Assembly: GCF_014202225.1 (NCBI RefSeq)
Contig: NZ_JACHGE010000001.1
Coordinates: 477,320-541,319 of the forward strand
Length of the DNA: 64,000 nucleotides
DNA from: Algibacter amylolyticus
Lineage (GTDB): Bacteria; Bacteroidota; Bacteroidia; Flavobacteriales; Flavobacteriaceae
Direction: 5' to 3'
The notes beneath the pieces were generated by a model. It was given only the letters and a program-made list of their open reading frames with translations, searched no databases and was not told where the DNA came from. Made by a program: the position numbers and the translations under genes. Shown in pieces: positions 31,118-42,628 of the stretch (its first letter is position 1; every line of letters starts with the position of its first letter).

Positions 31118-33421
31118 TTATTCTTCTTCAGGACTAGCAATAGTTGCCGGTTTAATAGAAGCATCATGCGAATTATGATATTCTTCTAAAAGGTTCATAG
31201 TCGCTGTTAGTAAATCTTTAGTTTCTAAAAGTACACCAAAGTATAATGTTGTATTTTTTGGACTAGATTCTTCAGTACGCGTACGCTCTACTTGTTTTTG
31301 GATTTTTTCAGAAAGTATATTTAATACCTCTTCTTTTCTATCTAAAATTCCTGCTATTTCAGCAAAAGCATTAGAATCGAACACCGCTTTGGTATCATTA
31401 AATAAACATTCTAGAGCCGCATCAACTTCTTTTAATTCTTTAATTTGATTAAATTTAAGTTTCTTGTGGTTATTGTTTACGTGTTTATAACTCACCTTAG
31501 AGATGTACTCTAAAGACTGTGTCATATCTTGTAAATACCCTAAAATATTAATGTAGAAATTACTAGCGCCAACACTAGATTCGTCTAGGTTTTTGATAAA
31601 GTAGAAAATGTTATCTCTTAATTCATCAACTTCTAACGAAAGTTTATCAATTTGTTTTTTATTCTTTTTAAGCGATAATAAATCTTGTTTAGCAAGACCG
31701 TTTATGGCGTTAGTATAAATCTTATTACCACGTTTAACAACGTTAGCAACATTATTAGCACTTTCATATATTACACCTTGTACAGAACTACTTTCTGCTT
31801 TAATTAGGCTGTCTTCTGCTTTTACTTCTTTAGATTTTTTAGTGTGCAGCATAGAACTTCTAATTAATAATATAAGGGCAGCTACAAGTAGCACTGGAAA
31901 CATTACTGTTAAGTTTAAATTTAACAAGTAAGCCACTAAAGCCGCTGCTGTAAATGCGCTAAATGCAGTAAAAAACCAACCACCAATAACGTTTATAACA
32001 CCTGCAACTCTATATACAGCACTTTCTGCACCCCAAGCACGATCGGCTAATGATGAACCCATGGCTACCATAAATGTAACATAAGTTGTAGATAAAGGCA
32101 GTTTGTATGATGTAGCAATAGAAATTAAAACAGCAGCAACCATTAGGTTTACAGCAGCTCTAACTAAATCGAAAGCTGGTAATTCATACGCTTTATCCTT
32201 TGGCATTTTTATAACAGGTTTTTCAAATTGTTTATCAATTTTTTCCTGAACAGATTGTGGTAATAAATATGATGATACTTGAGACATTACCATCGCTGTT
32301 CTTACAAAACCACGAGATAAAAAGTTAGGTTGAAAACGTTCTTTAGTTTCGCCTTGACTAGATAAATCTAAAGATGTTTTTACAACTCCTTTTGCTTTAG
32401 TAGAAAACCAAAGGGTTAAAACCATAATCATACCAGCCATAAATAATAACCAGTTGTTTGTTGGTACTTTTTCTGCTAAAACATCCATTGGGAATTCGTG
32501 TGCAGGAATTCCAGAAGCAGACCATTCTAAAAATGCATTATAAGCTGCAACAGGTACTCCAATAAAATTCACTAAATCGTTACCAGCAAAGGCTAATGCT
32601 AGTGCAAACGTTCCTACTATAATAATAAGTTTATATATGTTAGTTTTTGCAAAGGCTATTAAGCTATATGATAATAAAGACCAGAACGTAAAACTAACAA
32701 GAACAATAGGTAAAACGTTTGTTTCAAGAAAATGAGACATGGTGTTTCCTCCAAGAATATCGTAAGATTCTTTTGCATAAGAAGTTCCTTTTAAACCCTT
32801 CATGAAAATAAAATACGTAATGGCTGTTAAAGCAAACCCACCAAATAAAGCGCCAACCCAATGTGCTTTCTTTTCGAAGTTGTATGATAATAAAACCCTA
32901 GAAAACCATTGTACTAATGCTCCAATGGAGAATGCGACGACCACCGAGAGTAGTATACCGAATATAATTTGTGAAGCTTTTGATGTGTTTATGTAATTGA
33001 TAACATCGCCAAAACTACCACCATCATGACCTATTTTAATTAACGCTATGGCAACGGCAGCACCTAACAATTCGAAAACAATAGATACTGTTGTAGATGT
33101 TGGCATACCTACCGAGTTGAAAAAATCGAGTAGGAGGATATCCGTTATCATAACCGCCATGAAAATAATCATGATCTCATCGAACATAAATTCGCTCGGG
33201 TTAAAAATACCTTTTCGTGCTACTTCCATCATACCGCTAGAAAACACAGCACCAACTGCAACACCGGCACTTGCCACTATCATTACAGTTTTAAAAGAAA
33301 TAGCTTTAGAACCGATGGCGGAATTTAAAAAGTTTACCGCATCGTTACTAACACCAACAACCAAATCCGCAATTGCTAAAATGGCTAAGGCAATAATCAT
33401 ATATAAATAAATATTATCCAT
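31118..33421 (-). CDS. PiT-family inorganic phosphate transporter with PhoU-like tail
   Basis: 767 residues from ATG 33421 (MDNIYLYMIIAL), preferred over an ATG-like codon 33 bp upstream because a -7 box lies between. The N-terminal half has the PiT signature GVSNDAVNFLNSAIGSKA near residue 23 and the repeated later GNDLVNFIGVPVAA near 280, with about ten membrane helices to 530. The C-terminal 200 residues are cytosolic and helical, resembling PhoU (two helical bundles with repeated Glu/Asp). It should import phosphate with protons or sodium, with the tail as regulator. It lies behind the porin gene but has its own promoter with TAAC repeats. Confidence 0.93.
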   Translation of the reverse strand: MDNIYLYMIIALAILAIADLVVGVSNDAVNFLNSAIGSKAISFKTVMIVASAGVAVGAVFSSGMMEVARKGIFNPSEFMFDEIMIIFMAVMITDILLLDFFNSVGMPTSTTVSIVFELLGAAVAIALIKIGHDGGSFGDVINYINTSKASQIIFGILLSVVVAFSIGALVQWFSRVLLSYNFEKKAHWVGALFGGFALTAITYFIFMKGLKGTSYAKESYDILGGNTMSHFLETNVLPIVLVSFTFWSLLSYSLIAFAKTNIYKLIIIVGTFALALAFAGNDLVNFIGVPVAAYNAFLEWSASGIPAHEFPMDVLAEKVPTNNWLLFMAGMIMVLTLWFSTKAKGVVKTSLDLSSQGETKERFQPNFLSRGFVRTAMVMSQVSSYLLPQSVQEKIDKQFEKPVIKMPKDKAYELPAFDLVRAAVNLMVAAVLISIATSYKLPLSTTYVTFMVAMGSSLADRAWGAESAVYRVAGVINVIGGWFFTAFSAFTAAALVAYLLNLNLTVMFPVLLVAALILLIRSSMLHTKKSKEVKAEDSLIKAESSSVQGVIYESANNVANVVKRGNKIYTNAINGLAKQDLLSLKKNKKQIDKLSLEVDELRDNIFYFIKNLDESSVGASNFYINILGYLQDMTQSLEYISKVSYKHVNNNHKKLKFNQIKELKEVDAALECLFNDTKAVFDSNAFAEIAGILDRKEEVLNILSEKIQKQVERTRTEESSPKNTTLYFGVLLETKDLLTATMNLLEEYHNSHDASIKPATIASPEEE

Positions 33422-33444
33422 AGGGTTTATTTGTAAAATGTGTG

Positions 33445-33490
33445 CAAATATCATCGTTTTAAATAATTGTTATGTTACGTGAATGTTATC
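33445..33490 (-). promoter_or_regulatory. PiT promoter with Pho-type 11-bp repeats
   Basis: On the minus strand, GATAACATTCA (33490-33480) and CGTAACATAAC (33479-33469) place TAACA twice at 11-bp spacing, 25 and 36 bp before GATATTTG (33452-33445), a -7-like box. Geometry matches other genes of this block and the TTAACA-N5 repeats of PhoP/PhoB sites. Confidence 0.6.
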
Positions 33491-33492
33491 AA

Positions 33493-34686
33493 TTAGAAGT
33501 GGATATCCATTTGAAGCCTGAACATTAGCTCGTTATCGCTACCATGAATATTGGTGTAACTTATATCGCTTTGTACTTTAAGTTTGTGCCCCGCTATATA
33601 TTTTGAGAGGCCTAATGTATACATGTCATCAGAATTGCTATTTGAAACAGCATCCATATTAATGTCCGTATATCGGCCTGTAATTTCCCAGTTTGAAGGG
33701 AATAGATATCCCGTTACTAAGTTTAAACCGTTTCCAACTTGTACAGCATCTCCGGTCTCTGTACCATCTGTGTTTTTTGCAATGGGATTGTCTGCAGTTC
33801 TATCTACATATTCAAACATAAAGGAATAGCCTTTGTATTTAAACATACCGTCAACAAAAACGGTGTTCACATTAGTTTTATGAAAATCAGTTCCGCCATC
33901 AATAAACATATAAGACCCTCTGTTACTTCGCGTTCTAACAGCGTCATTATTGATTTCGTAACTTGCACCTACCGATAATTTAGGTTTTTGTTCTCGTTTT
34001 AAATCTGAACCTCGGTAATCGCCTTTGCTGCTAAAATTCCCGAAAGGTAAAAACTCTAATCTTCCAACATATTGGTAACCACCTAAGTTAATTCCGGTAA
34101 CGTTTCTGCCTTCACCTTGAGACACTGAAAGTGTTTCGTTAATAAGGAATTTATCTGTAACATTAAAATGATGTTTTAGCATGGCTCCAATATCTCTATC
34201 AATATTAAAGCGGCTATTTAATCGAGATCTATCAACAAGTTGTAAATCGCCAGAAGATATAACACGTTCTCTGTTACCAGGAAGTTTGCCTTGACCTACC
34301 CATAATTCGAAATTTTCGTGAAAATTCCACATGATACGAGCATCCATAATATATCTAGGAGAATTGCTAGTAAAAGCTGAAGCGCCAGACATATCTCTAT
34401 TCGATAAACCAAGTTCAAATTTATATTTTAATTTAGGAGAGAATGCAAAACCGTCAAATTTTAGTCTAGATCGTCTTACCAAAAAGTTTGATTCATTAGG
34501 TCCATTTTCATTCCAGGTAGAAGTACCAAGTAATTGGAACCTAAAACCTACTTTCATGGTCCAAGAGCTATCTTGACCTACAAGATTAAAAAGGCCTTTT
34601 CCGAATTTGCCAGAATTAACTTCTTGCGCATTTAAAGAAGTTAATGCAAACAGAAATACCCAAATAAGGGTAATTTTAGTTTTCAT
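33493..34686 (-). CDS. OprP/OprO-type phosphate-selective porin
   Basis: 397 residues with a signal peptide (MKTKITLIWVFLFALTSLNA). The mature part is a beta-barrel with alternating polar and apolar strands and a C-terminal aromatic residue (QMDIHF). FGKGLFNLVGQDSSWTMKVGFRFQLLG and SNFLVRRSRLKFDGFAFSPKLKYKFE are signatures of the porin O/P family, whose pseudomonad members take up phosphate or pyrophosphate across the outer membrane. Adjacency to the PiT transporter gives an outer-to-inner membrane path for phosphate. Its promoter carries 11-bp repeats. Confidence 0.92.
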   Translation of the reverse strand: MKTKITLIWVFLFALTSLNAQEVNSGKFGKGLFNLVGQDSSWTMKVGFRFQLLGTSTWNENGPNESNFLVRRSRLKFDGFAFSPKLKYKFELGLSNRDMSGASAFTSNSPRYIMDARIMWNFHENFELWVGQGKLPGNRERVISSGDLQLVDRSRLNSRFNIDRDIGAMLKHHFNVTDKFLINETLSVSQGEGRNVTGINLGGYQYVGRLEFLPFGNFSSKGDYRGSDLKREQKPKLSVGASYEINNDAVRTRSNRGSYMFIDGGTDFHKTNVNTVFVDGMFKYKGYSFMFEYVDRTADNPIAKNTDGTETGDAVQVGNGLNLVTGYLFPSNWEITGRYTDINMDAVSNSNSDDMYTLGLSKYIAGHKLKVQSDISYTNIHGSDNELMFRLQMDIHF

Positions 34687-34708
34687 TTAGTATTAGTTTT
34701 TGTCGCTG

Positions 34709-34759
34709 CAAATAACTAAAACTAATGTTAACTTAATGTTTCCTAATGATTAACTTTAG
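34709..34759 (-). promoter_or_regulatory. Porin promoter with Pho-type 11-bp repeats
   Basis: Three 11-bp units occupy plus-strand 34727-34759 (GTTAACTTAAT first; the others start at 34738 and 34749). On the minus strand these put TAAT, AAAC and TAAC tetramers at about 36, 25 and 14 bp before GTTATTTG (34716-34709), the -7-like box. The leader following it is about 20 nt with the sequence CGACAAAAACTAATA just before the ATG. Confidence 0.65.
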
Positions 34760-34761
34760 AA

Positions 34762-34879
34762 CAAAAAAAAGACTGCCTCGGCCAAAGACAGTCCATTAGA
34801 AATCATAATAATGTAGTCGACAAAAACTAATAGATTATATGAAAAACTAATTTTTTTGTCTTAAGACAATACAAATATC
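34762..34879 (-). ncRNA. Candidate small RNA upstream of the porin gene
   Basis: On the minus strand, a GATATTTG -7-like box (34879-34872, identical to that of PiT) is preceded by TTAAC-type repeats (34879-34911). About 95-105 nt later comes a strong intrinsic terminator: stem 34793-34786 with 34778-34771, one G-T pair, then eight T. No ORF lies between, so this predicts a short RNA from about 34866 to 34763. It contains the perfect palindrome TTGTCTTAAGACAA (34856-34869) near its 5' end and a 15-nt stretch (34832-34818) complementary to the porin leader at 34705-34691. Expression is not shown by sequence; it is inference. Confidence 0.45.
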
Positions 34880-34986
34880 TAGGTTTAACATCACGTTAAG
34901 GTAACCTGTATATTAAGGAATTATTAATTTCCAATGTTAAATCTTTAATAATTGTTAACTGTTAAAACACTGTAAATGAGTTGTTT

Positions 34987-35051
34987 GCGAGTTTAATGTT
35001 AATTTAAGGTTAACAAGGTGTTGTGTAAATGTTAACTATTGTTTATCTTTG
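34987..35051 (+). promoter_or_regulatory. Promoter of the MORN gene with 11-bp GTTAA repeats
   Basis: GTTAA or GTTGT begins at 34998, 35009, 35020 and 35031, exactly 11 bp apart. TTG (35021-35023) and TATCTTTG (35044-35051), spaced by 20 bp, form a regular -33/-7 promoter. The array overlaps it, with a register a few bases different from that of the other genes in the block. Confidence 0.6.
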
Positions 35052-35078
35052 AGGTATAATGTTAAAACCCCCATAATT

Positions 35079-35393
35079 ATGAAGAAGTTATTATTTGTTT
35101 TTGCCTTTTTAATTACTGTGGTATCTTTTGGACAACAAAAGAGAGACTTAAAACTTAATAAAGACACAAACTTAATTGATGTTGTTTATTATCATGACAA
35201 TGGTGTTGTAAGCCAAACAGGTTCTTACACAGCAGATGGTAAACTACAAGGAGTTTGGTTAAGCTTTAACGAAGAAGGCAAAAAAACAGTTTCTGCAAAT
35301 TATGATAATGGAACAAAAGTCGGCAAATGGATTTATTGGATTGACGGATCTAAAAAGGTAGTCAATTATGAAAATAATGTCGCTTCGCTATAG
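35079..35393 (+). CDS. Secreted MORN-repeat-variant protein
   Basis: 104 residues from ATG 35079; the in-frame TTG 30 bp upstream overlaps the -7 box. Signal peptide MKKLLFVFAFLITVVSFGQ. The mature part has three repeats of the MORN-variant type (VVSQTGSYTADGKLQGVW, KTVSANYDNGTKVGKWIYW and a final partial copy). Family relatives are often called YwqK-like antitoxins, a label that I would not adopt here. It is periplasmic or surface-exposed. Its position within the phosphate block and the GTTAA array suggest phosphate control. Confidence 0.85.
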   Translation: MKKLLFVFAFLITVVSFGQQKRDLKLNKDTNLIDVVYYHDNGVVSQTGSYTADGKLQGVWLSFNEEGKKTVSANYDNGTKVGKWIYWIDGSKKVVNYENNVASL

Positions 35394-35413
35394 GTTATAT
35401 AGTAAAGTGTAAA

Positions 35414-35447
35414 ACAAAAAAAAGCATCCTATTAAGGATGCTTTTTT
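35414..35447. terminator. Bidirectional terminator
   Basis: AGCATCCT and AGGATGCT pair around ATTA (35423-35442), with A- and T-runs on both sides. It serves the MORN gene (+) and the lipoprotein gene (-). Confidence 0.92.
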
Positions 35448-35466
35448 ATTATATGTTGTTTAGCTT

Positions 35467-37473
35467 TTATAGGCTAGCATTTTTCCAAGTCCAAGTAGAG
35501 ATGTCTACTAGCGCTCCTGTATTGTATGCATCAGTTGTTGTTGCAGCAACACCTTCGATAATTACGTTAGCTAATGGACCATCATCTTTCATGTCGATGT
35601 TAGTATCATATCCGCTTAAGTAAAGACCTGTAATGGTTGCACCAGATTGTTTTTTGAATTGTAAAGCAGTTCCACCTACAGTAGAAATAGCAGTCACATT
35701 TACAAATTTAGGGTTTCCGTTATCTTTATCACCTTCAAAAGCTGTAGAGAATCCTTCAACAGTATTTGAAATATATGTGTTTGTTACCGTTCCGTTCCAT
35801 CCTTCAGTCCAATCAACAGCATCATCACTATTGTTTTCTAAGTAGATGTTAGTTACAGATACAGTACCACCAAAGAACTCAATTCCATCGTCATCTCCAT
35901 TAATTACAGAGATGTTTTCTAGAGTTGTTCCTGTACCTACAGCGTATAACGAAACACCATTGTATTGAGACTCCGAGTTAATTTGAGCACCAGTTCCTTT
36001 AAGAACTAAGTATGTTACAGAACCAGAGTTATCAGCATCATTAGTTCCACCGTAAATAAATCCACCAACTTCGGCAGTTGCATCAACACCAGCGGTAGTT
36101 GTTGCATTACCACATATTGTTAAACCTCCCCAATCTCCAGGACTTGCAGATGCAGAAGAAATAACAACAGGGTTAGTAGCAGTACCTTGAATATCTATTT
36201 CGCCACCTTGTAATACAGCAATGTAAACTCCTGTTCCGCCATCTCTAGCAGTAATTTTTGTTCCAGCAGGAATTGTTAATTTTCCACCATCTTGTACAAT
36301 GTAAGATGAGTTAAGAACATAAGATAGAGAAGCGTTTAAAGTAACATCGCCTGTAACAGCACCTTGAAGTAAAGTACTTTCAAAAGAAATATTTGTATCT
36401 ACCCATGGAAAGTCTTGAGCGGTTGTATTTGCTACAACTGTAGTGTTAAGTGTGTAAAAATATTCTGAATTAGCTGCTTGCTCTTCTTCTGAAGCAAGGG
36501 CAACAGGAGAATAACCATCTACAAAAGTTACATTTGTTACTGCGCCACCATCTTTCATGTCTAAATCAACATCATAACCAACTAAAGAAAGACCATCAAT
36601 AGTACCACCAGAAGTTTTCTTGAATTGTAATGCAGTACCACCAACTGTAGAAACAGCTGTAATGTTATTAAATTTAGGGTTTCCGTTATCTTTATCGCCT
36701 TCAAAAACTGTAGAGAAACCAGCAACTGTGTTAGAAATGTAAGCATTAGTAATGCTACCGTTCCAACCTTCAGTCCAGTCAATAGAATCATCACTATTGT
36801 TTTCTAAGTATAGGTTACTTACTTCAACAGAACCACCAAAAAACTCAACACCATCATCATCACCATTAATAACAGCAATGTTATCTACTAATGTTCCAGA
36901 TCCAACAGCGTAAAAAGAAACACCATTGTATTGAGATTCTGAGTTAATTTGAGCACCAGTACCAGAAATTTGTAAATATCTAATAATACCTGAACTATCA
37001 GAATCATCAGTCCCACCGTAAATAAATCCACCAACTTCGGCAGTTGCATCAACGCCAGCAGTAGTTGTTGCTTTACCACATAATGTTAATCCGCCCCAAT
37101 CGCCAGGGTTACCATCTGCAGAAGACATAATAACAGGGTTTCCAGCAGATCCGTTAATGTTTATTGTTCCTCCCATTAATGTTGCGATGTAAACATCTGT
37201 TCCACCGTTATCAGCAAGAATTTTTGTTCCAGCAGGAATGTTTAATGTTGCGCCATCGTCGATAATAAATTGTCCAGTTAAATTATAGGTAGTAGTTGAA
37301 GACAGCGTATAATCTTCAGTTAAGGTACCTTTTAAAATACCAGCATCTAGGTTCTCTATAACTGCTGTTGTACCACCAGTTATAGGTGCTGGATCGTCAG
37401 AATCACAACTCGTTAAAGTAATAGCACCAAAGGCCATTGAGATGCTAAGTAGTTTTACAAATAAATTTTTCAT
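35467..37473 (-). CDS. Two-repeat beta-helix lipoprotein beside a TonB receptor
   Basis: 668 residues with a lipoprotein signal (Cys23 in TLTSCDSDD). The rest is two near-identical halves, about 322 residues apart, each with an N-terminal LTEDYTLSSTTTYNLTGQF- or LNASLSYVLNSSYI-like strand, a DWGGLTLCGKATTTAGVDA motif, a QYNGVSFYAVGSGT block and NNSDDSIDWTEGWNG. The pattern of short, repeated beta strands suggests right-handed parallel beta-helices at the cell surface. The substrate is unknown. It is 253 bp downstream of a TonB-receptor gene on the same strand and likely works with it. Confidence 0.88.
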   Translation of the reverse strand: MKNLFVKLLSISMAFGAITLTSCDSDDPAPITGGTTAVIENLDAGILKGTLTEDYTLSSTTTYNLTGQFIIDDGATLNIPAGTKILADNGGTDVYIATLMGGTININGSAGNPVIMSSADGNPGDWGGLTLCGKATTTAGVDATAEVGGFIYGGTDDSDSSGIIRYLQISGTGAQINSESQYNGVSFYAVGSGTLVDNIAVINGDDDGVEFFGGSVEVSNLYLENNSDDSIDWTEGWNGSITNAYISNTVAGFSTVFEGDKDNGNPKFNNITAVSTVGGTALQFKKTSGGTIDGLSLVGYDVDLDMKDGGAVTNVTFVDGYSPVALASEEEQAANSEYFYTLNTTVVANTTAQDFPWVDTNISFESTLLQGAVTGDVTLNASLSYVLNSSYIVQDGGKLTIPAGTKITARDGGTGVYIAVLQGGEIDIQGTATNPVVISSASASPGDWGGLTICGNATTTAGVDATAEVGGFIYGGTNDADNSGSVTYLVLKGTGAQINSESQYNGVSLYAVGTGTTLENISVINGDDDGIEFFGGTVSVTNIYLENNSDDAVDWTEGWNGTVTNTYISNTVEGFSTAFEGDKDNGNPKFVNVTAISTVGGTALQFKKQSGATITGLYLSGYDTNIDMKDDGPLANVIIEGVAATTTDAYNTGALVDISTWTWKNASL

Positions 37474-37513
37474 TTCTATTTTTAATTTTGGTTTATTATG
37501 TATGTTTATTCTG

Positions 37514-37612
37514 CAAATTAAGCGGATTTATGTTGCTTACTGTTTAATTAAATATTAAGCATAAGTTACCTTTAGCACCTTAAATAAGCCTTCATGTTAA
37601 GCGAGTGTTAAT
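37514..37612 (-). promoter_or_regulatory. Lipoprotein promoter with Pho-type 11-bp repeats
   Basis: On the minus strand TTAATTTG (37521-37514) is the -7-like box. TAAC, TAAT, TAAA and CAAC tetramers stand at about 47, 36, 25 and 14 bp before it, 11 bp apart. A second pair, ATTAACACTCG (37612-37602) and CTTAACATGAA (37601-37591), lies further upstream, also at 11 bp. Confidence 0.65.
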
Positions 37613-37645
37613 AGCTAATTATCACTTAAGATTAGTGTATAAATG

Positions 37646-37678
37646 AACAAACCTCAATACATAGTATTGAGGTTTGTT
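37646..37678 (-). terminator. Terminator of the TonB-receptor gene
   Basis: AACAAACCTCAATAC pairs perfectly with GTATTGAGGTTTGTT around ATA, about 50 bp after the receptor stop. The tails are T/A-rich on both sides. Confidence 0.85.
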
Positions 37679-37726
37679 TTGAGATTTTAAACCTTTTAAG
37701 CGGTTTAGATATAGTCTTGATTATAA

Positions 37727-40465
37727 TTAAAAATCGTATTTTAAACTTAAGTTTAATTGTGCTCCTTTTTTATAAGAAAGAACCACTTCGTCAGTTTCAA
37801 CACCGGTATTAATGTTTCTTACTAATTGTGTTTGTTGAATGTCTGGGTTAAGTAAGTTTCTACCAACTAATTTAATTTGTAATTTTTCAGTTAGCATTTT
37901 ACTTACAACGAAATCTAGAGTGAAAAATCCTTTCTCAATTATTTCATCATTATAAAGTACAGCACTGTTACTAAAATCTTCTGGCGATCCTAAAGCGAAT
38001 ACCTTATCTGAAGAGTAGTTTCCTGTTAACGTAGCATTAAACTCTTTTTCAGTTTTACTATTGTAGCTTAAAGAACTGTTTAAGATTAAATCTGAAGCAC
38101 CTTGTAAATCTGATTCTGTGATGCCTTTGTATTGAAAACCTTCTAATAAATCTTGATTAAACCACATTTTAGTAATGTTGGTATTAAAATCTAAAAGACT
38201 TTCTTCGTCTTCATTTTTAAGAAGTTCAATTCTTGTTTCAAATTCGAAACCAAAAATATTAGCATTATTTCCTGTGTTCGCATATTCAAATATTCCTGAA
38301 GATCCTCTAGTTTGTGCTAAGTTAATTGGGTTTTTAATGTCTTTATAAAATGCTGTTGCAGAAATTAATTGTCCTTTTGAAGGGAAAAATTCATATTTTA
38401 AATCGACATTAAATACATCCGATTTTTCTAAATTTGGATCACCTCTAGTAACACGTCCTGTTGGCGATACATATTCAAAAGGTGCTAATTCTTTAAACTC
38501 TGGTAAAGTTTGTGTTAAACTAGAAGCAAAACGAACGGCATGCTTATCGTTTAATTCGTATTTTAAGTTTAAACTAGGGTATAATTCAGTGTATTCTTTT
38601 TTAATAGAACCAATACGGCCAACAAAGTTAGCAACATCCCAAAGTACATTAATTTCATCGCGCTCAAAACGTACACCGGCGTTACCAGAAAGTTTTTGTC
38701 CTAAATGGAAATCTAAATTAGCATAACCTGAAATAGCATTTAAATCGGCATCGTATCTATCGGCTTCTCTTTCTCTTAAAACTAAGCCGTTTTCGAAATT
38801 TTCTGTAGTAAATGTTTCAGAAAATTGATCGACAGATGGTACTTGAAAATCTCTCGCTCTAACTCCAATAAACAAAGAACTAAATACTCTGTCTTTTTGA
38901 CGGAAATTTGCTCCGAAGTTTAATTTAAATGGGTGGTTATCATCTTCATCTAACGTTCCAAAAGAAATGGCGTCGTTAATATAGGCGTTGTATTCTGTAT
39001 CCTCAATTTTCTGGTTAGACTTTCTTTGTTGAAAATCTCCAACGTGAGCATATTGCACGGTGTTTTCATCTAAAATATTAGCTTCATTTCTAACTCTGTT
39101 AGGTTCTTGCGCTAATACATAGTTATACCCAGCAGCCCAAGTTAATTTGTTGTTTTCTTTAATTTGGTGAGAACCTTCAATTTGGTTTACTAATAAAATA
39201 GTTTGTTTAAAGTTTTGGTCTCTAACAAAAGCACCATCTTCTTGTGGATCCTGATCAAAAACATAACCTTCAGCATTTCTACCTTGCTCGTAAACATTAT
39301 CATTACTTGTGTTAACAGATAAGCTGCTAATTTTAAGTCTGTGGTTATCACTTAATTTTAATCCTAAATTAACATAACCTGTTGTATTTGTTTTAGTAGT
39401 AAACGATTCGGTATCTGTAAACTCGTTATCTAAGATATTCGATCTGTAACTTCTAAAAAGACCTTCTTGGTATTCTGAAGATTTAGAGTGAGAACCCGCA
39501 ACAAATACTTTAAGTTCTTTTCCAAATACCTCAAATTTTTGGCCACCAGAAAGTGAAATTCCATAGTTACCAGTGCTTTTTTGTTTAAGTGGATCCCAAC
39601 CTTGTCTTGTAACTAAATCTACAAGTGCATATTCTTTTTTATGGAAACCTAAAGTGGCATCTTCTGTAGCAACACTTCTTTTAAAACCACCATCTATACC
39701 AAATACATTAGTGTTGTAACCAGAGCTTAAACTAACAGATGCTCCTTTTTTAGAATAGCCTTTTGAAGTAATATCTACATTACCCGAAGTTTGATCTGCA
39801 TAGCTAGATGTCGCGTATGTTTTGCTAATTCCAACATTTTCAATAATGTTAGTTGAAAACAAGTTAAGGTTAATGTTTTTGTTGTTTACATCATCAGAAG
39901 GTATTGGTAAACCGTTCATGGTTGTAGATAAGTATCTATCACCTAAACCTCTAATATAAATATCTCCAGAGCCTTCACTTTTAGAAACTCCTGCAATTTT
40001 AGTAGTTGCAACAGCAGCATCAGAAACACCAATTTTAGATAAACGTTCTGCTCCAATACTTTCTTTAATTACAACCGCTTTTTTCTGCTCAAATAAAAGG
40101 GCAGACTCACTTTCTCTTCGTGTTGTAGTGGTAATAACAACCTCGTCTAAAGAGGCAGCACTTGCACTCATTACCACATTAAGTTCTAATTCTTTTCCAG
40201 CAACTACAGTAACAGGTATTTCTTGAGTTTGATACCCAACAAAACTTACTATTAGTATATAGTCTTTGGCTTCTAAATTGTTTAAGGTGTAAAACCCATC
40301 AAAGTCCGATGTTGTACCTGTAGTGGTTCCTTTTACAATAACATTAGCAAATGCTAACGGTTCATTGTTGTATTCTTTATCTGTTAATTTACCTTTAATA
40401 GAGCCTGTTTGGGCATAAGAAAATACAGTTGTTAACAGCGTAAGTACTAGTAATAGTTTTTTCAT
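37727..40465 (-). CDS. TonB-dependent receptor of the phosphate block
   Basis: 912 residues: signal peptide (MKKLLLVLTLLTTVFSYAQ), a CarboxypepD_reg-like domain (about 22-105, with TSDFDGFYTLNNL), a plug (about 120-240; SGDIYIRGLGDRYLSTTMNG) and a 22-strand barrel ending LNLSLKYDF. It imports a large substrate using TonB-ExbBD energy. No SusD partner is adjacent; instead a beta-helix lipoprotein follows. The upstream region has five TAAC-type units at 11-bp spacing, so the substrate may be a phosphorus source. No ligand can be read from sequence. Confidence 0.94.
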   Translation of the reverse strand: MKKLLLVLTLLTTVFSYAQTGSIKGKLTDKEYNNEPLAFANVIVKGTTTGTTSDFDGFYTLNNLEAKDYILIVSFVGYQTQEIPVTVVAGKELELNVVMSASAASLDEVVITTTTRRESESALLFEQKKAVVIKESIGAERLSKIGVSDAAVATTKIAGVSKSEGSGDIYIRGLGDRYLSTTMNGLPIPSDDVNNKNINLNLFSTNIIENVGISKTYATSSYADQTSGNVDITSKGYSKKGASVSLSSGYNTNVFGIDGGFKRSVATEDATLGFHKKEYALVDLVTRQGWDPLKQKSTGNYGISLSGGQKFEVFGKELKVFVAGSHSKSSEYQEGLFRSYRSNILDNEFTDTESFTTKTNTTGYVNLGLKLSDNHRLKISSLSVNTSNDNVYEQGRNAEGYVFDQDPQEDGAFVRDQNFKQTILLVNQIEGSHQIKENNKLTWAAGYNYVLAQEPNRVRNEANILDENTVQYAHVGDFQQRKSNQKIEDTEYNAYINDAISFGTLDEDDNHPFKLNFGANFRQKDRVFSSLFIGVRARDFQVPSVDQFSETFTTENFENGLVLREREADRYDADLNAISGYANLDFHLGQKLSGNAGVRFERDEINVLWDVANFVGRIGSIKKEYTELYPSLNLKYELNDKHAVRFASSLTQTLPEFKELAPFEYVSPTGRVTRGDPNLEKSDVFNVDLKYEFFPSKGQLISATAFYKDIKNPINLAQTRGSSGIFEYANTGNNANIFGFEFETRIELLKNEDEESLLDFNTNITKMWFNQDLLEGFQYKGITESDLQGASDLILNSSLSYNSKTEKEFNATLTGNYSSDKVFALGSPEDFSNSAVLYNDEIIEKGFFTLDFVVSKMLTEKLQIKLVGRNLLNPDIQQTQLVRNINTGVETDEVVLSYKKGAQLNLSLKYDF

Positions 40466-40489
40466 TGTAATAATCTATTTTTGTCGCTG

Positions 40490-40568
40490 CAAAGAAACCA
40501 ACGTTTTAAAAACTTAACGTTACCTACGGATTAAATAACTGTAATAAAAGTGTTAGTTAAATGTTAAT
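40490..40568 (-). promoter_or_regulatory. TonB-receptor promoter with five 11-bp Pho-type repeats
   Basis: Five 11-bp units fill plus-strand 40514-40568 (starts at 40514, 40525, 40536, 40547 and 40558). On the minus strand TAAC, TAAT, TTAC, TAAC, TAAC stand at 25, 36, 47, 58 and 69 bp before the -7-like TTTCTTTG (40497-40490). The leader begins CAGCGACAAAAA, shared with the porin leader. Confidence 0.7.
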
Positions 40569-40679
40569 TGAAACCCTATATTTCTTTTAATAGTTTACAA
40601 TGAGTTAACATAAAAAAGCGTGTTAGGAAAGTAATAAACAGTTTTACTCTATTTTAAAACATTTAATTGAGGTATAAAA

Positions 40680-40711
40680 AAAGCAGCTTTCATTTACATG
40701 AAAGCTGCTTT
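40680..40711 (-). terminator. Terminator of the CarboxypepD_reg-like gene
   Basis: AAAGCAGCTTTCAT pairs perfectly with ATGAAAGCTGCTTT around TTAC, 35 bp after the stop of the 40746-41123 gene. It separates that gene from the receptor downstream, so they are independent units. Confidence 0.9.
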
Positions 40712-40745
40712 ATATATAATGTCTTTATTAACTAAGTAATACTAA

Positions 40746-41123
40746 TTAGTTGTTGCTGGCCGATGCACTATTATCTGCGCTAGCCATGGTAGCCATTAAA
40801 TCTTCTAAAGATAATGTGCTAGGTTCTAGTATTACCTTCACTAGTGCAGCATCTGATGCTATCGTGATTTTTGTTTCTTTAGTGTTATAACCAACAAAGC
40901 TACTTACTAAGGTGTATTCGCCATTTTCTAGGTTATCGAACTTAAAAAAGCCTTTATCATCCGATAAAACTTGAGCTCCAGTTTCCTTTAAAACCACTTT
41001 AGCAAGTATTAAAGGCTCGTTATTAGATTCAAAATCTAATAAGTTACCATGTATAGCACCTGTATCTTGACCAAAAGATAGTGCCGAAATAAAAAATAAA
41101 GTGATGTAAATTATGTGTTTCAT
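40746..41123 (-). CDS. Secreted CarboxypepD_reg-like domain protein
   Basis: 125 residues from ATG 41123, with signal peptide MKHIIYITLFFISALSFGQ; an ATG 18 bp upstream falls in the promoter. The mature protein is one CarboxypepD_reg-like domain (about 25-105: NEPLILAKVVLKETGAQVL, KGFFKFDNLENGEYTLVSSFVGY) and a short Ser/Ala-rich tail. It corresponds to the N-terminal extension of TonB receptors, here on its own. It may dock to the receptor at 37727 or another barrel. TAAC repeats lie upstream. Confidence 0.85.
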   Translation of the reverse strand: MKHIIYITLFFISALSFGQDTGAIHGNLLDFESNNEPLILAKVVLKETGAQVLSDDKGFFKFDNLENGEYTLVSSFVGYNTKETKITIASDAALVKVILEPSTLSLEDLMATMASADNSASASNN

Positions 41124-41143
41124 AATGGTTATAATATCCACTG

Positions 41144-41224
41144 CAAAAATACACCCCTTTACAAGTTTAGTATGTTACCAAATCATTAAACGTAAATGAT
41201 TAAAAGGTTACCCTAATGTTAAGT
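41144..41224 (-). promoter_or_regulatory. Promoter with five 11-bp Pho-type repeats
   Basis: Five 11-bp units at plus-strand 41170-41224 carry TAAC or TAAT in four units on the minus strand, the nearest 26 bp before TATTTTTG (41151-41144), a perfect -7 box. It places transcription about 15 nt before ATG 41123. Confidence 0.7.
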
Positions 41225-41287
41225 AATTTACCAACTTATTAAGTCAACAATTTATTATCTTGCCACAAGTTAATTGAATACAATATT

Positions 41288-42628
41288 ATGAACTGGGAGC
41301 AACTTTTATCCTTAAAACGCTTTGGCGACACAAGTAAACGTATACGTAAAGAACAAGACGAAACCCGTTTGGGCTTCGAGGTAGATTACGACCGTGTTAT
41401 TTTCTCATCGGAGTTTAGGAGTTTACAAGATAAAACGCAAGTTATCCCATTATCTGAAACCGATTTTGTACACACGCGCTTAACGCACAGTTTAGAGGTT
41501 AGCGTAGTGGGTCGATCGTTAGGCAGACGCGTAGGGCAAAAGTTATTAGAAAAGCATCCGCATTTACAAAGCTCACTTGGGTATCAAGCCAACGATTTTG
41601 GAGCTATAGTAGCAGCTGCAGCATTGGCTCACGATATTGGAAATCCACCTTTTGGACATTCTGGAGAAAAGGCTATTGGCGAGTTTTTTAAAACAGGCGA
41701 GGGTAAAACATTTAAATCTGAATTAACCGATAAGGAATATCAAGATTTATGCGATTTTGAGGGTAATGCTAACGGATTTAAAATCTTAACCGAAGATAGA
41801 GCAGGTCGTCTTGGTGGACTCCGCTTAAGCTACGCCACACTTGGGGCATTTATGAAATATCCAAAAGAGTCGTTACCAAAAAGGCCAACAAAACATATAG
41901 CCGATAAAAAATATGGCTTTTTCCAAAGTGAAAAAGAAGCCTTTCTAGATGTTGTAAAGGAACTCGGGTTAACTAAACGAAATGAAACCGATTTAAGCTA
42001 CGCCAGACATCCATTAACCTATTTGGTAGAAGCTGCAGATGATATTTGCTACACCATTATCGATTTTGAAGATGGTATTAACCTCGGTCTCATTCAAGAA
42101 GAATTTGCCCTAGAATATCTTTCTAAAATAATTAGGCACACCATTAGGCCCGAAAACTATTATGCCCTTTCTACCAAGGAAGATCGTGTAGGTTATTTGC
42201 GTGCCCTTGCCATTGGTTCGCTTATTAACGAGGCTGTCGATATTTTTATGGCCAACGAAGATGCCATTTTAAACGGAAATTTCGATTGCGCATTGCTCGA
42301 TAAAAGTAAATACGATGCACAAATAAAAGATATTATTAAAATAAGTGTTGATAATATCTATCAATCTACCGAGGTTGTCGATAAAGAAATTGCGGGTTAT
42401 GGCGTAATAAACACACTATTAAAAACTTATACCAAGGCCGTAAACAACTGTTTTAATAACTCTGGTTCCAATTACGATAAGCTTATTTTAAAAGGCTTGC
42501 CAAAAAACATAAAAGTTGAGGATTCCAGTTTATACAACCGTTTATCAAGCGTATGTTATTATGTGTCTTTACTGTCCGATAGTAAAGCTATTTTAGATTA
42601 CAAGAAGATAAAGGGGATTAGTTTTTAA
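41288..42628 (+). CDS. dgt: Deoxyguanosinetriphosphate triphosphohydrolase
   Basis: 446 residues. The HD metal-binding set is complete: LTHSLEVSVVG (His) near 75 and AALAHDIGNPPFGHSGE with the His-Asp pair near 118. LVEAADDICYTIIDFEDG near 250 is another family signature. It hydrolyses dGTP, or dNTPs in general, to nucleoside and triphosphate and so regulates dNTP pools. It is the first plus-strand gene after the phosphate block, divergent from the CarboxypepD_reg-like gene. The following 281-bp gap holds nothing that I can assign. Confidence 0.95.
   Translation: MNWEQLLSLKRFGDTSKRIRKEQDETRLGFEVDYDRVIFSSEFRSLQDKTQVIPLSETDFVHTRLTHSLEVSVVGRSLGRRVGQKLLEKHPHLQSSLGYQANDFGAIVAAAALAHDIGNPPFGHSGEKAIGEFFKTGEGKTFKSELTDKEYQDLCDFEGNANGFKILTEDRAGRLGGLRLSYATLGAFMKYPKESLPKRPTKHIADKKYGFFQSEKEAFLDVVKELGLTKRNETDLSYARHPLTYLVEAADDICYTIIDFEDGINLGLIQEEFALEYLSKIIRHTIRPENYYALSTKEDRVGYLRALAIGSLINEAVDIFMANEDAILNGNFDCALLDKSKYDAQIKDIIKISVDNIYQSTEVVDKEIAGYGVINTLLKTYTKAVNNCFNNSGSNYDKLILKGLPKNIKVEDSSLYNRLSSVCYYVSLLSDSKAILDYKKIKGISF

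Follow-up and report, generated by a model that had tools for sequence, protein, structure and literature searches.

The stretch of the Algibacter amylolyticus genome analyzed here (the window; 64,000 nucleotides, C1:477320-541319; the genome measures 4.35 Mb and is split into 25 contigs) contains a block of six genes whose promoters, at about positions 33445 to 41224, carry TAAC-type tetramers repeated every 11 bp. In order, the block encodes a PiT-type phosphate transporter, a porin, a small protein referred to as MORN, a beta-helix lipoprotein, a TonB-dependent receptor (TBDT) and a stand-alone CarboxypepD_reg-like protein (CPD); all are on the minus strand except MORN, which is on the plus strand. 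The arrays are very probably the binding sites of a PhoB-type regulator that is encoded elsewhere in the genome and that would raise expression of an uptake block (receptor, lipoprotein, porin and PiT) when phosphate is low. Overall, we regard a phosphate-starvation block of the PhoB type as well supported by sequence and synteny, although not proven.

Much of the organic matter in the sea and in soil is broken down by Flavobacteriia. Exact units combined with a fixed register make the phosphate regulon predictable from sequence, and through the box, four uncharacterized proteins (receptor, lipoprotein, CPD and MORN) would become linked to that regulon. The same analysis yields a directly testable candidate for a Pho-linked small RNA in Bacteroidota.

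Phased arrays and their register

Bacteroidota promoters have a -7 element with its own consensus, and the arrays occupy a fixed place relative to it. Forward units lie 40, 29 and 18 nucleotides before the TTTG, with one base more in CPD. Scores given in bits for promoters and arrays refer to a sequence model, R1, that was built from 69 sites in named loci of relatives, none of them from the window.

The clearest arrays precede PiT, TBDT and CPD. At the PiT promoter (33442..33498, minus strand; 31.4-31.6 bits), two units, TAACATTCACGTAAC at 33488-33474 of the minus strand, are followed by TTTGC, with 25 nucleotides from the second TAAC to TTTG. The TBDT promoter (40488..40569, minus strand; 26.1 bits) has a five-unit array that is conserved in relatives, with units at -101, -90, -79 (here TTAC), -68 and -57 from the ATG; the last TAAC is followed by 25 nucleotides and then TTTGC. 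The five units of the CPD promoter (41144..41221, minus strand) are at -98, -87, -76 (TCAT), -65 and -54, and 26 nucleotides separate the last TAAC from TTTGC. Both five-unit arrays match exactly a four-unit search pattern.

Other promoters depart from this form. The porin promoter (34706..34767, minus strand) reads TAAT-AAAC-TAAC at 40, 29 and 18 nucleotides before TTTGCAG. The lipoprotein gene has a weak proximal array, TAAC-TAAT-(TAAA)-(CAAC), at -95..-62 before TTTGC (37511..37569, minus strand; 12.6 bits), and a distal array, TAAT-TAAC-TAAC, at -148, -137 and -126 (37591..37622, minus strand; 11.5 bits). Thus, where the sequence-only reading of this DNA had described TAAC or TAAT every 11 bp in six promoters, this holds for PiT, TBDT and CPD, while some units of porin and lipoprotein are degenerate. 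Likewise, the unit said to lie 25-26 bp before the -7 box in five promoters is TAAC in PiT, TBDT and CPD, and degenerate in porin (AAAC) and lipoprotein (TAAA).

At MORN, the array is real, but its units are on the strand opposite to the one expected. Read on the strand of the gene, GTTA occurs at 34998, 35009 and 35031, and GTTG at 35020, so that the units are inverted relative to the -7 element, TATCTTTG, at 35044-35051 of the plus strand. On the minus strand, this region (34996..35051) agrees with the four-unit pattern but for one mismatch. The GTTA at 35009 lies exactly 35 nucleotides before TAnnTTTG. Among 47 MORN promoters (44 distinct), 24 have both the GTTA pair and TAnnTTTG, at a distance of 35 nucleotides in 23 and 36 in one. 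The centers of the inverted units deviate from the forward register by no more than about one base, which suggests use of the same face of the helix.

To quantify spacing, we used two collections. Set 1 comprised 87 target promoters of the six gene families in 21 loci (the window and 20 loci of relatives), with 205 other genes from the same loci and from four further stretches of the A. amylolyticus genome as controls. Set 2 comprised 80 named loci, chosen as the best among at least 585 relatives; three genomes are common to both sets. The control genes come from automatic gene calling, and some of them lie inside operons; comparing spacings among the target promoters themselves provides a cleaner control. 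In set 1, TAAC pairs occurred 67 times per 100 promoters at 11 bp, compared with 5 at 10 bp and none at 12 bp, and further peaks were present at 22, 33 and 44 bp (15, 39 and 30 per 100). The corresponding control values at 10, 11 and 12 bp were 0, 2 and 1.

Individual families were scored for pairs (TAAY-TAAY at 11 bp with at least one C) and for register (two of the three positions TAAY, one being TAAC). In set 1, pairs were present in 14/14 PiT, 20/21 TBDT, 9/9 CPD, 3/10 porin and 5/21 lipoprotein promoters, and MORN had forward pairs in 4/12 and reversed pairs in 11/12. Controls had forward pairs in 12/205 and reversed pairs in 14/205, and dinucleotide shuffles of the targets gave 4-7%. In set 2, 75/84 TBDT, 31/32 PiT, 15/16 CPD, 6/19 porin and 24/80 lipoprotein promoters had pairs, as did 29/712 other genes, and MORN had 4/35 forward and 24/35 reversed pairs. 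Reversed pairs were also found at phoB (28/30) and dgt (31/34), as expected where these genes share an intergenic region with TBDT or CPD; the HD-domain gene that adjoins CPD divergently in the window is presumably dgt.

The register was observed in 13/14 PiT, 17/21 TBDT, 8/9 CPD, 6/10 porin, 0/21 lipoprotein and 0/12 MORN promoters of set 1, and in 25/32 PiT, 66/84 TBDT, 14/16 CPD, 14/19 porin, 1/80 lipoprotein and 2/2 PstS promoters of set 2. Of the six genes of the block itself, five have a forward pair and four are in register. Equal frequency of the arrays at unrelated genes, which would have spoken against a box specific to the block, was not found. In a 400-kb sample of the A. amylolyticus genome, 1/282 genes was in register and 6/282 had a TAAC pair at 11 bp. 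The register occurred at 2/205 controls of set 1, both in one locus (L055), namely pstS and a preceding gene that shares the porin promoter layout, and at 4/712 other genes of set 2, two of which are CPD homologues and two belong to no family. Across genera, array units are retained while the flanking sequence differs.

In the whole genome, the four-unit pattern has two exact matches, at TBDT and CPD; the MORN array is among four matches with one mismatch, and up to two mismatches gave 52 matches, compared with 22 for the reversed control. A genome scan with R1, a model trained outside the window, placed porin (35.1 bits), PiT (31.4) and TBDT (26.1) among the top four matches. The other high-ranking matches were C4:44879 (26.1) and C3:433433 (23.8), and the rest scored at most 17.8 bits. 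We set C3:433433 aside as a probable chance match, since its array runs against the gene starting there. Two further patterns were rejected. A search for two units plus TTTGC with a variable gap gave three matches compared with one in the control, and PiT was the sole gene of the block among them. A plain three-unit TTAAC pattern was dropped as too loose.

The candidate regulator and the phosphate reading

The genome encodes just two response regulators with an OmpR-type DNA-binding domain (PF00486), one PhoB-like and one RprY-like. The PhoB-like gene (C1:827612-828289) is followed by a gene for a PhoR-like kinase, with a glycosyltransferase gene in convergent orientation, and the best named matches of the pair are PhoB and PnpS/PhoR. 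As PhoU was not found in the genome, A. amylolyticus probably lacks a Pst-PhoU system.

In many relatives, phoB is a neighbor of the TBDT-lipoprotein pair, and in some, pst genes are. A phoB gene lies within 300 bp of TBDT in 9 of 37 TBDT-bearing genomes and within 3 kb in 11, and it is the gene adjoining TBDT in 23 of the 80 named loci. At least one of phoB, phoR, pst, phoU, PiT or porin is present in 62 of these 80. In L041, the TBDT and lipoprotein genes adjoin a porin-pstS-C-A-B-phoU series, and in L055 they adjoin pstS. The four pst-linked promoters examined (porin-pst in L041, and pstS in L055, L143 and L210) carry in-register units. Where a PhoB match was present (E <= 1e-60, a threshold that a diverged PhoB could escape), pairs were found in 32/41 PiT genes and in 27/29 for TBDT. 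The arrays, the register, their conservation and the synteny with phoBR and pst are direct observations.

One of the closest described counterparts is the phoBR locus with PUSIV of Flavobacterium johnsoniae (Fjoh_0541-0549), which likewise has a receptor and a lipoprotein of the pectin-lyase fold (PMC8115612). Its order is glycosyltransferase (Fjoh_0541), OprP (0542), phoR (0543), phoB (0544), receptor (0545) and lipoprotein (0546). On phosphate depletion, that report gives log2 changes of +8.02 for the receptor, +9.91 for the lipoprotein and +3.06 for phoB, and receptor and lipoprotein did not respond to nitrogen or iron limitation. The word "motif" does not occur in its main text. As in PUSIV, a lipoprotein gene directly follows the receptor gene in our data (79/79). 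Unlike in F. johnsoniae, phoBR and the glycosyltransferase gene lie elsewhere in A. amylolyticus, and the receptor-lipoprotein pair is accompanied by PiT, porin, MORN and CPD. Three Flavobacterium loci resemble the F. johnsoniae layout, porin excepted, in a comparison of locus tags rather than of protein identity. The order phoR-phoB-TBDT-lipoprotein occurs in F. limicola (L210), F. soli (L212) and F. zepuense (L219), with phoR of F. soli located by tblastn. Their units at 40, 29 and 18 are TAAC/TAAC/TTAC, TAAT/TAAC/TTAC and TAAC/TAAC/TTAA, respectively. A GT28 glycosyltransferase gene adjoins phoR in F. soli and F. zepuense and lies past the pst genes in F. limicola, and no porin was found beside phoR in any of the three.

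The box itself is of a known type. Boxes of E. coli PhoB and B. subtilis PhoP are direct repeats of 11 nucleotides, several per promoter (PMC4415409), the layout that the sequence-only reading had invoked. The present arrays share the direct 11-nucleotide repeats and a fixed place relative to the core promoter, in a genome that encodes PhoB and PhoR. They differ from the boxes described there in that the unit is TAAC(A), is set against the Bacteroidota -7 element rather than a sigma70 -10 element, and in one conserved case (MORN) is inverted. Closer to Algibacter, a Pho-type regulator of Riemerella anatipestifer, also of the Flavobacteriia, binds a TTTAACA motif in vitro in DNA affinity purification sequencing (DAP-seq; PMC9603813). 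These data are genome-wide peaks, and the available part of the report describes no 11-bp array or promoter register; that regulator may be a PhoB or an RprY orthologue. In Caulobacter, the phosphate-starvation lipoprotein ElpS adjoins a TonB receptor, Cc0171 (PMC2996285), a pair that we liken to ours. That pair differs in being proteobacterial and beside type II secretion genes, and cc0171 is reported to be constitutive. Identities of 31-36% between FI-FIII and a Caulobacter low-phosphate lipoprotein are given in PMC8115612. Putative Pho boxes have also been placed near plcP in marine bacteria, without statement of the taxa in the available text (PMC4796936). Within the literature covered, our search found no Pho box for Flavobacteriia beyond the R. 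anatipestifer motif and these plcP-linked boxes, and it found neither the flavobacterial register, nor an inverted MORN array, nor the small RNA described below. We regard these three, namely the register of the units with respect to the Bacteroidota promoter, the inversion at MORN and the candidate RNA, as new. A search for noncoding-strand PhoP boxes at repressed Bacillus promoters found none in the literature covered.

We propose the following scheme. At low phosphate, the PhoR-like kinase would phosphorylate PhoB, which would line up head-to-tail on the 11-bp units 40, 29 and 18 nucleotides before TTTG(C), on one helix face next to RNA polymerase. Bound PhoB would then raise transcription of the uptake block. 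The TonB receptor and the surface beta-helix lipoprotein would perform the first step at the cell surface, the phosphate-type porin the outer membrane step and PiT the inner membrane step, with the CPD protein co-regulated. PhoB probably acts at MORN too, raising or lowering its expression, because the same array, inverted, is present at a fixed distance from the -7 element. We infer PhoB binding, activation and these uptake roles from the features above, and CPD and MORN are tied to the block only by promoter and synteny.

A PhoB-type phosphate block, as the sequence-only reading had suggested, is favored by the number of candidate regulators, the synteny with phoB and pst, the in-register pst promoters and the induction in F. 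johnsoniae. The likely role in phosphorus acquisition that it extended to receptor, lipoprotein, MORN and CPD agrees with that induction for the first two. In F. johnsoniae, OprP showed no significant change (-1.3, p 0.25), and PiT is absent from Table 1 of that report (PMC8115612). The lipoprotein gene has an array of its own, though a weaker one, and lies directly after the receptor gene. Several further points weigh against our interpretation. The PhoB-like protein falls short of equivalog cut-offs (214.8 vs 296.2 and 205 vs 270 bits), as do all best named matches of the pair, and phoB is about 310 kb from the block. The relatives are non-independent samples. The pair is missing in 9 of the 41 PiT genes from genomes with PhoB. 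R1 scores CPD at just 13.9 bits, its spacing being one base longer, and lipoprotein at 12.6, and the R1 scan scored 150 of 8325 first-look candidates, so that weaker members may have been missed.

Two other explanations of the arrays were considered. OmpR-family proteins have in common that they bind head-to-tail on repeats, and the arrays might be read by the RprY-like regulator of this genome, or by both regulators, in response to a different cue, for example envelope stress. In R. anatipestifer, the motif is similar to that of ArcA, and the regulator occupies 583 peaks (PMC9603813). The pair is absent at PiT (0/3, two of one genus) and at TBDT (0/1) in genomes with no PhoB match, as expected for PhoB. 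It is absent as well (0/4) from the four PiT genes with 51% identity or less in PhoB-bearing genomes (G031, G038 and two in G042), so divergence explains the loss equally well. On the other hand, phoB is beside the block in relatives, no RprY match of at least 50% identity is annotated in the 80 named loci, the pst-linked promoters carry the same array, and the F. johnsoniae pair responds to phosphate rather than to nitrogen or iron. We therefore consider this explanation improbable. It is far less probable still that the repeats are a general property of A+T-rich promoters, such as bending or phased tracts, with no specific regulator. In favor of such a property, the plain three-unit TTAAC pattern has 74 matches in the genome against 60 for the reversed control, hardly an enrichment; unless exact units and register are required, such a pattern is frequent in this A+T-rich genome. 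However, the strict register is rare at other genes, where moreover several of its few occurrences are at the pst locus or at CPD homologues, target pairs almost vanish at 10 or 12 bp, and units persist across genera while flanks change.

A small-RNA candidate between MORN and porin

On the minus strand between MORN and porin, a 108-nucleotide element (34764..34871), which the sequence-only reading had not noted, is a small-RNA candidate. It consists of a 5' hairpin, GTCTTAAGAC, a core, TATTAGTTTTTGTCGAC, and a terminator hairpin with a T run. Its predicted promoter (34870..34928, minus strand; 15.3-15.6 bits) has TAAT/TAAT/TTAC/TGAT at 51, 40, 29 and 18 nucleotides before TTTG. Among 20 promoters examined, 12 have TAAT at 40 with TTAC at 29, and three have TAAA with TAAC; four further sequences gave no TTTG. 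The sequence in the window has a folding z of -3.61, and the terminator stem exhibits double-sided changes at all seven pairs among 18 aligned sequences. No Rfam match overlaps the candidate up to E = 1 in a search of 33000-41600, and those found elsewhere in this region are below gathering scores. In the literature listings searched, no such small RNA was recognized.

The element may pair with the porin mRNA. Over 15 nucleotides in the window, the core TATTAGTTTTTGTCG is the reverse complement of the porin leader. In 30 porin loci, some of which share a genome, the longest match ranges from 8 to 17 nucleotides. It includes the core at 25 loci and is longer than in any of 200 shuffles at 15. 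Duplex energy averages -30.8 with porin leaders, compared with -11.5 to -20.2 with leaders of seven other genes. A strict script for core plus terminator, which misses the window's own copy, detected the element in 23/30 loci with porin and 3/71 without; two of those three end at MORN. The sequence TTTGCAGCGACAAAAA has exactly two occurrences in the genome, at porin and TBDT, and with up to two mismatches it has nine matches, compared with eight for the reversed control.

Taken together, an own promoter, an intrinsic terminator and a conserved pairing region are what a trans-acting small RNA would have. We tentatively suggest, at slightly less than even chances, an unrecorded Pho-controlled small RNA that is co-induced with porin and pairs with the 5' end of the porin mRNA and, in A. 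amylolyticus, probably with the TBDT mRNA too, in a feed-forward loop that would tune phosphate entry at the outer membrane, with a second array-driven candidate upstream of a DUF4230 gene. Alternatively, the inverted repeat formed with the porin leader could be a DNA operator to which a protein binds, or could belong to a long porin leader subject to attenuation. Conservation is strong in both halves, 15 of the 30 porin loci do not exceed all their shuffles, and the swap test was modest: 36 of 5000 permutations reached the total of the own pairing over 26 distinct pairs, one of which has a mispicked core (L039). Yet the terminator stem covaries throughout, the element has its own in-register promoter, the distance between halves varies (core at -128 to -231 from the ATG, leaving out L039 with its wrong core), and in L192 and L203 both halves have changed together. 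We judge an operator or leader unlikely.

The second candidate is the C4 match mentioned above. At C4:44879-44940, an in-register array of 26.1 bits is followed about 75 nucleotides on by a hairpin resembling an intrinsic terminator, upstream of the DUF4230 gene; the element is a candidate for a short RNA or a leader. The observation covers this locus and L267-L277; among 25 relatives, seven have a TAAC-containing pair within 170 bp, and the A. amylolyticus array lies just past that distance.

Genes of the block and other arrays

Two products of the block are of phosphate-transport types, as had been noticed. The PiT gene (31118..33418, minus strand) matches Pfam PHO4 with 110.6 bits. Its open reading frame was listed from 33454, but the ATG at 33418, 12 codons further in, is the likelier start, because the conserved TTTGC falls inside the longer frame; the alignment with PiT homologues of relatives also begins there. 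The porin gene (33493..34686, minus strand) matches Porin_O_P (PF07396) with 45.6 bits. MORN (35079..35393, plus strand; 104 amino acids) owes its name to the sequence-only reading; the protein has no Pfam match and a weak NCBIfam adhesin match (20.5 bits vs a cut-off of 250). The TBDT gene (37727..40465, minus strand) encodes CarbopepD_reg_2 and Plug domains and scores 148.3 bits with TIGR01782, under the cut-off of 310. CPD (40746..41123, minus strand) matches PF13715 with 68.5 bits.

The lipoprotein gene (35467..37473, minus strand) encodes two homologous halves in tandem, on the evidence of an alignment consensus and of an AlphaFold2 model that predicts a beta-helix (mean pLDDT 88.1, pTM 0.56). 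Each half has a conserved DDGVEFFGG...DD..DWTEGW region, and several relatives have a single half. The protein has no match in Pfam or in a sequence search of the PDB. Foldseek retrieved carbohydrate enzymes of the beta-helix type, and no TM-score among the 50 matches listed was above 0.24, so we do not claim an enzyme activity.

Some additional arrays were observed. A weak one (C4:60293-60333; 15.2 bits) precedes a gene for a choice-of-anchor I lipoprotein; arrays upstream of such genes are weak, with one TAAC unit plus TAAA. In F. johnsoniae, Fjoh_3414 is a phosphate-induced lipoprotein with propeller-type domains (PMC8115612). In the A. amylolyticus genome itself (L003:12418-12613), a four-unit array, TAAC-TAAC-TTAC-TAAC, lies between phoB and a gene for a protein with a type IX secretion tail, directed away from phoB. 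Finally, two genes for proteins of 330 amino acids (L156:1669-2661 and L164:15814-16806) have in-register units and no Pfam or NCBIfam match, and their loci contain pstB-phoU and PiT, respectively.

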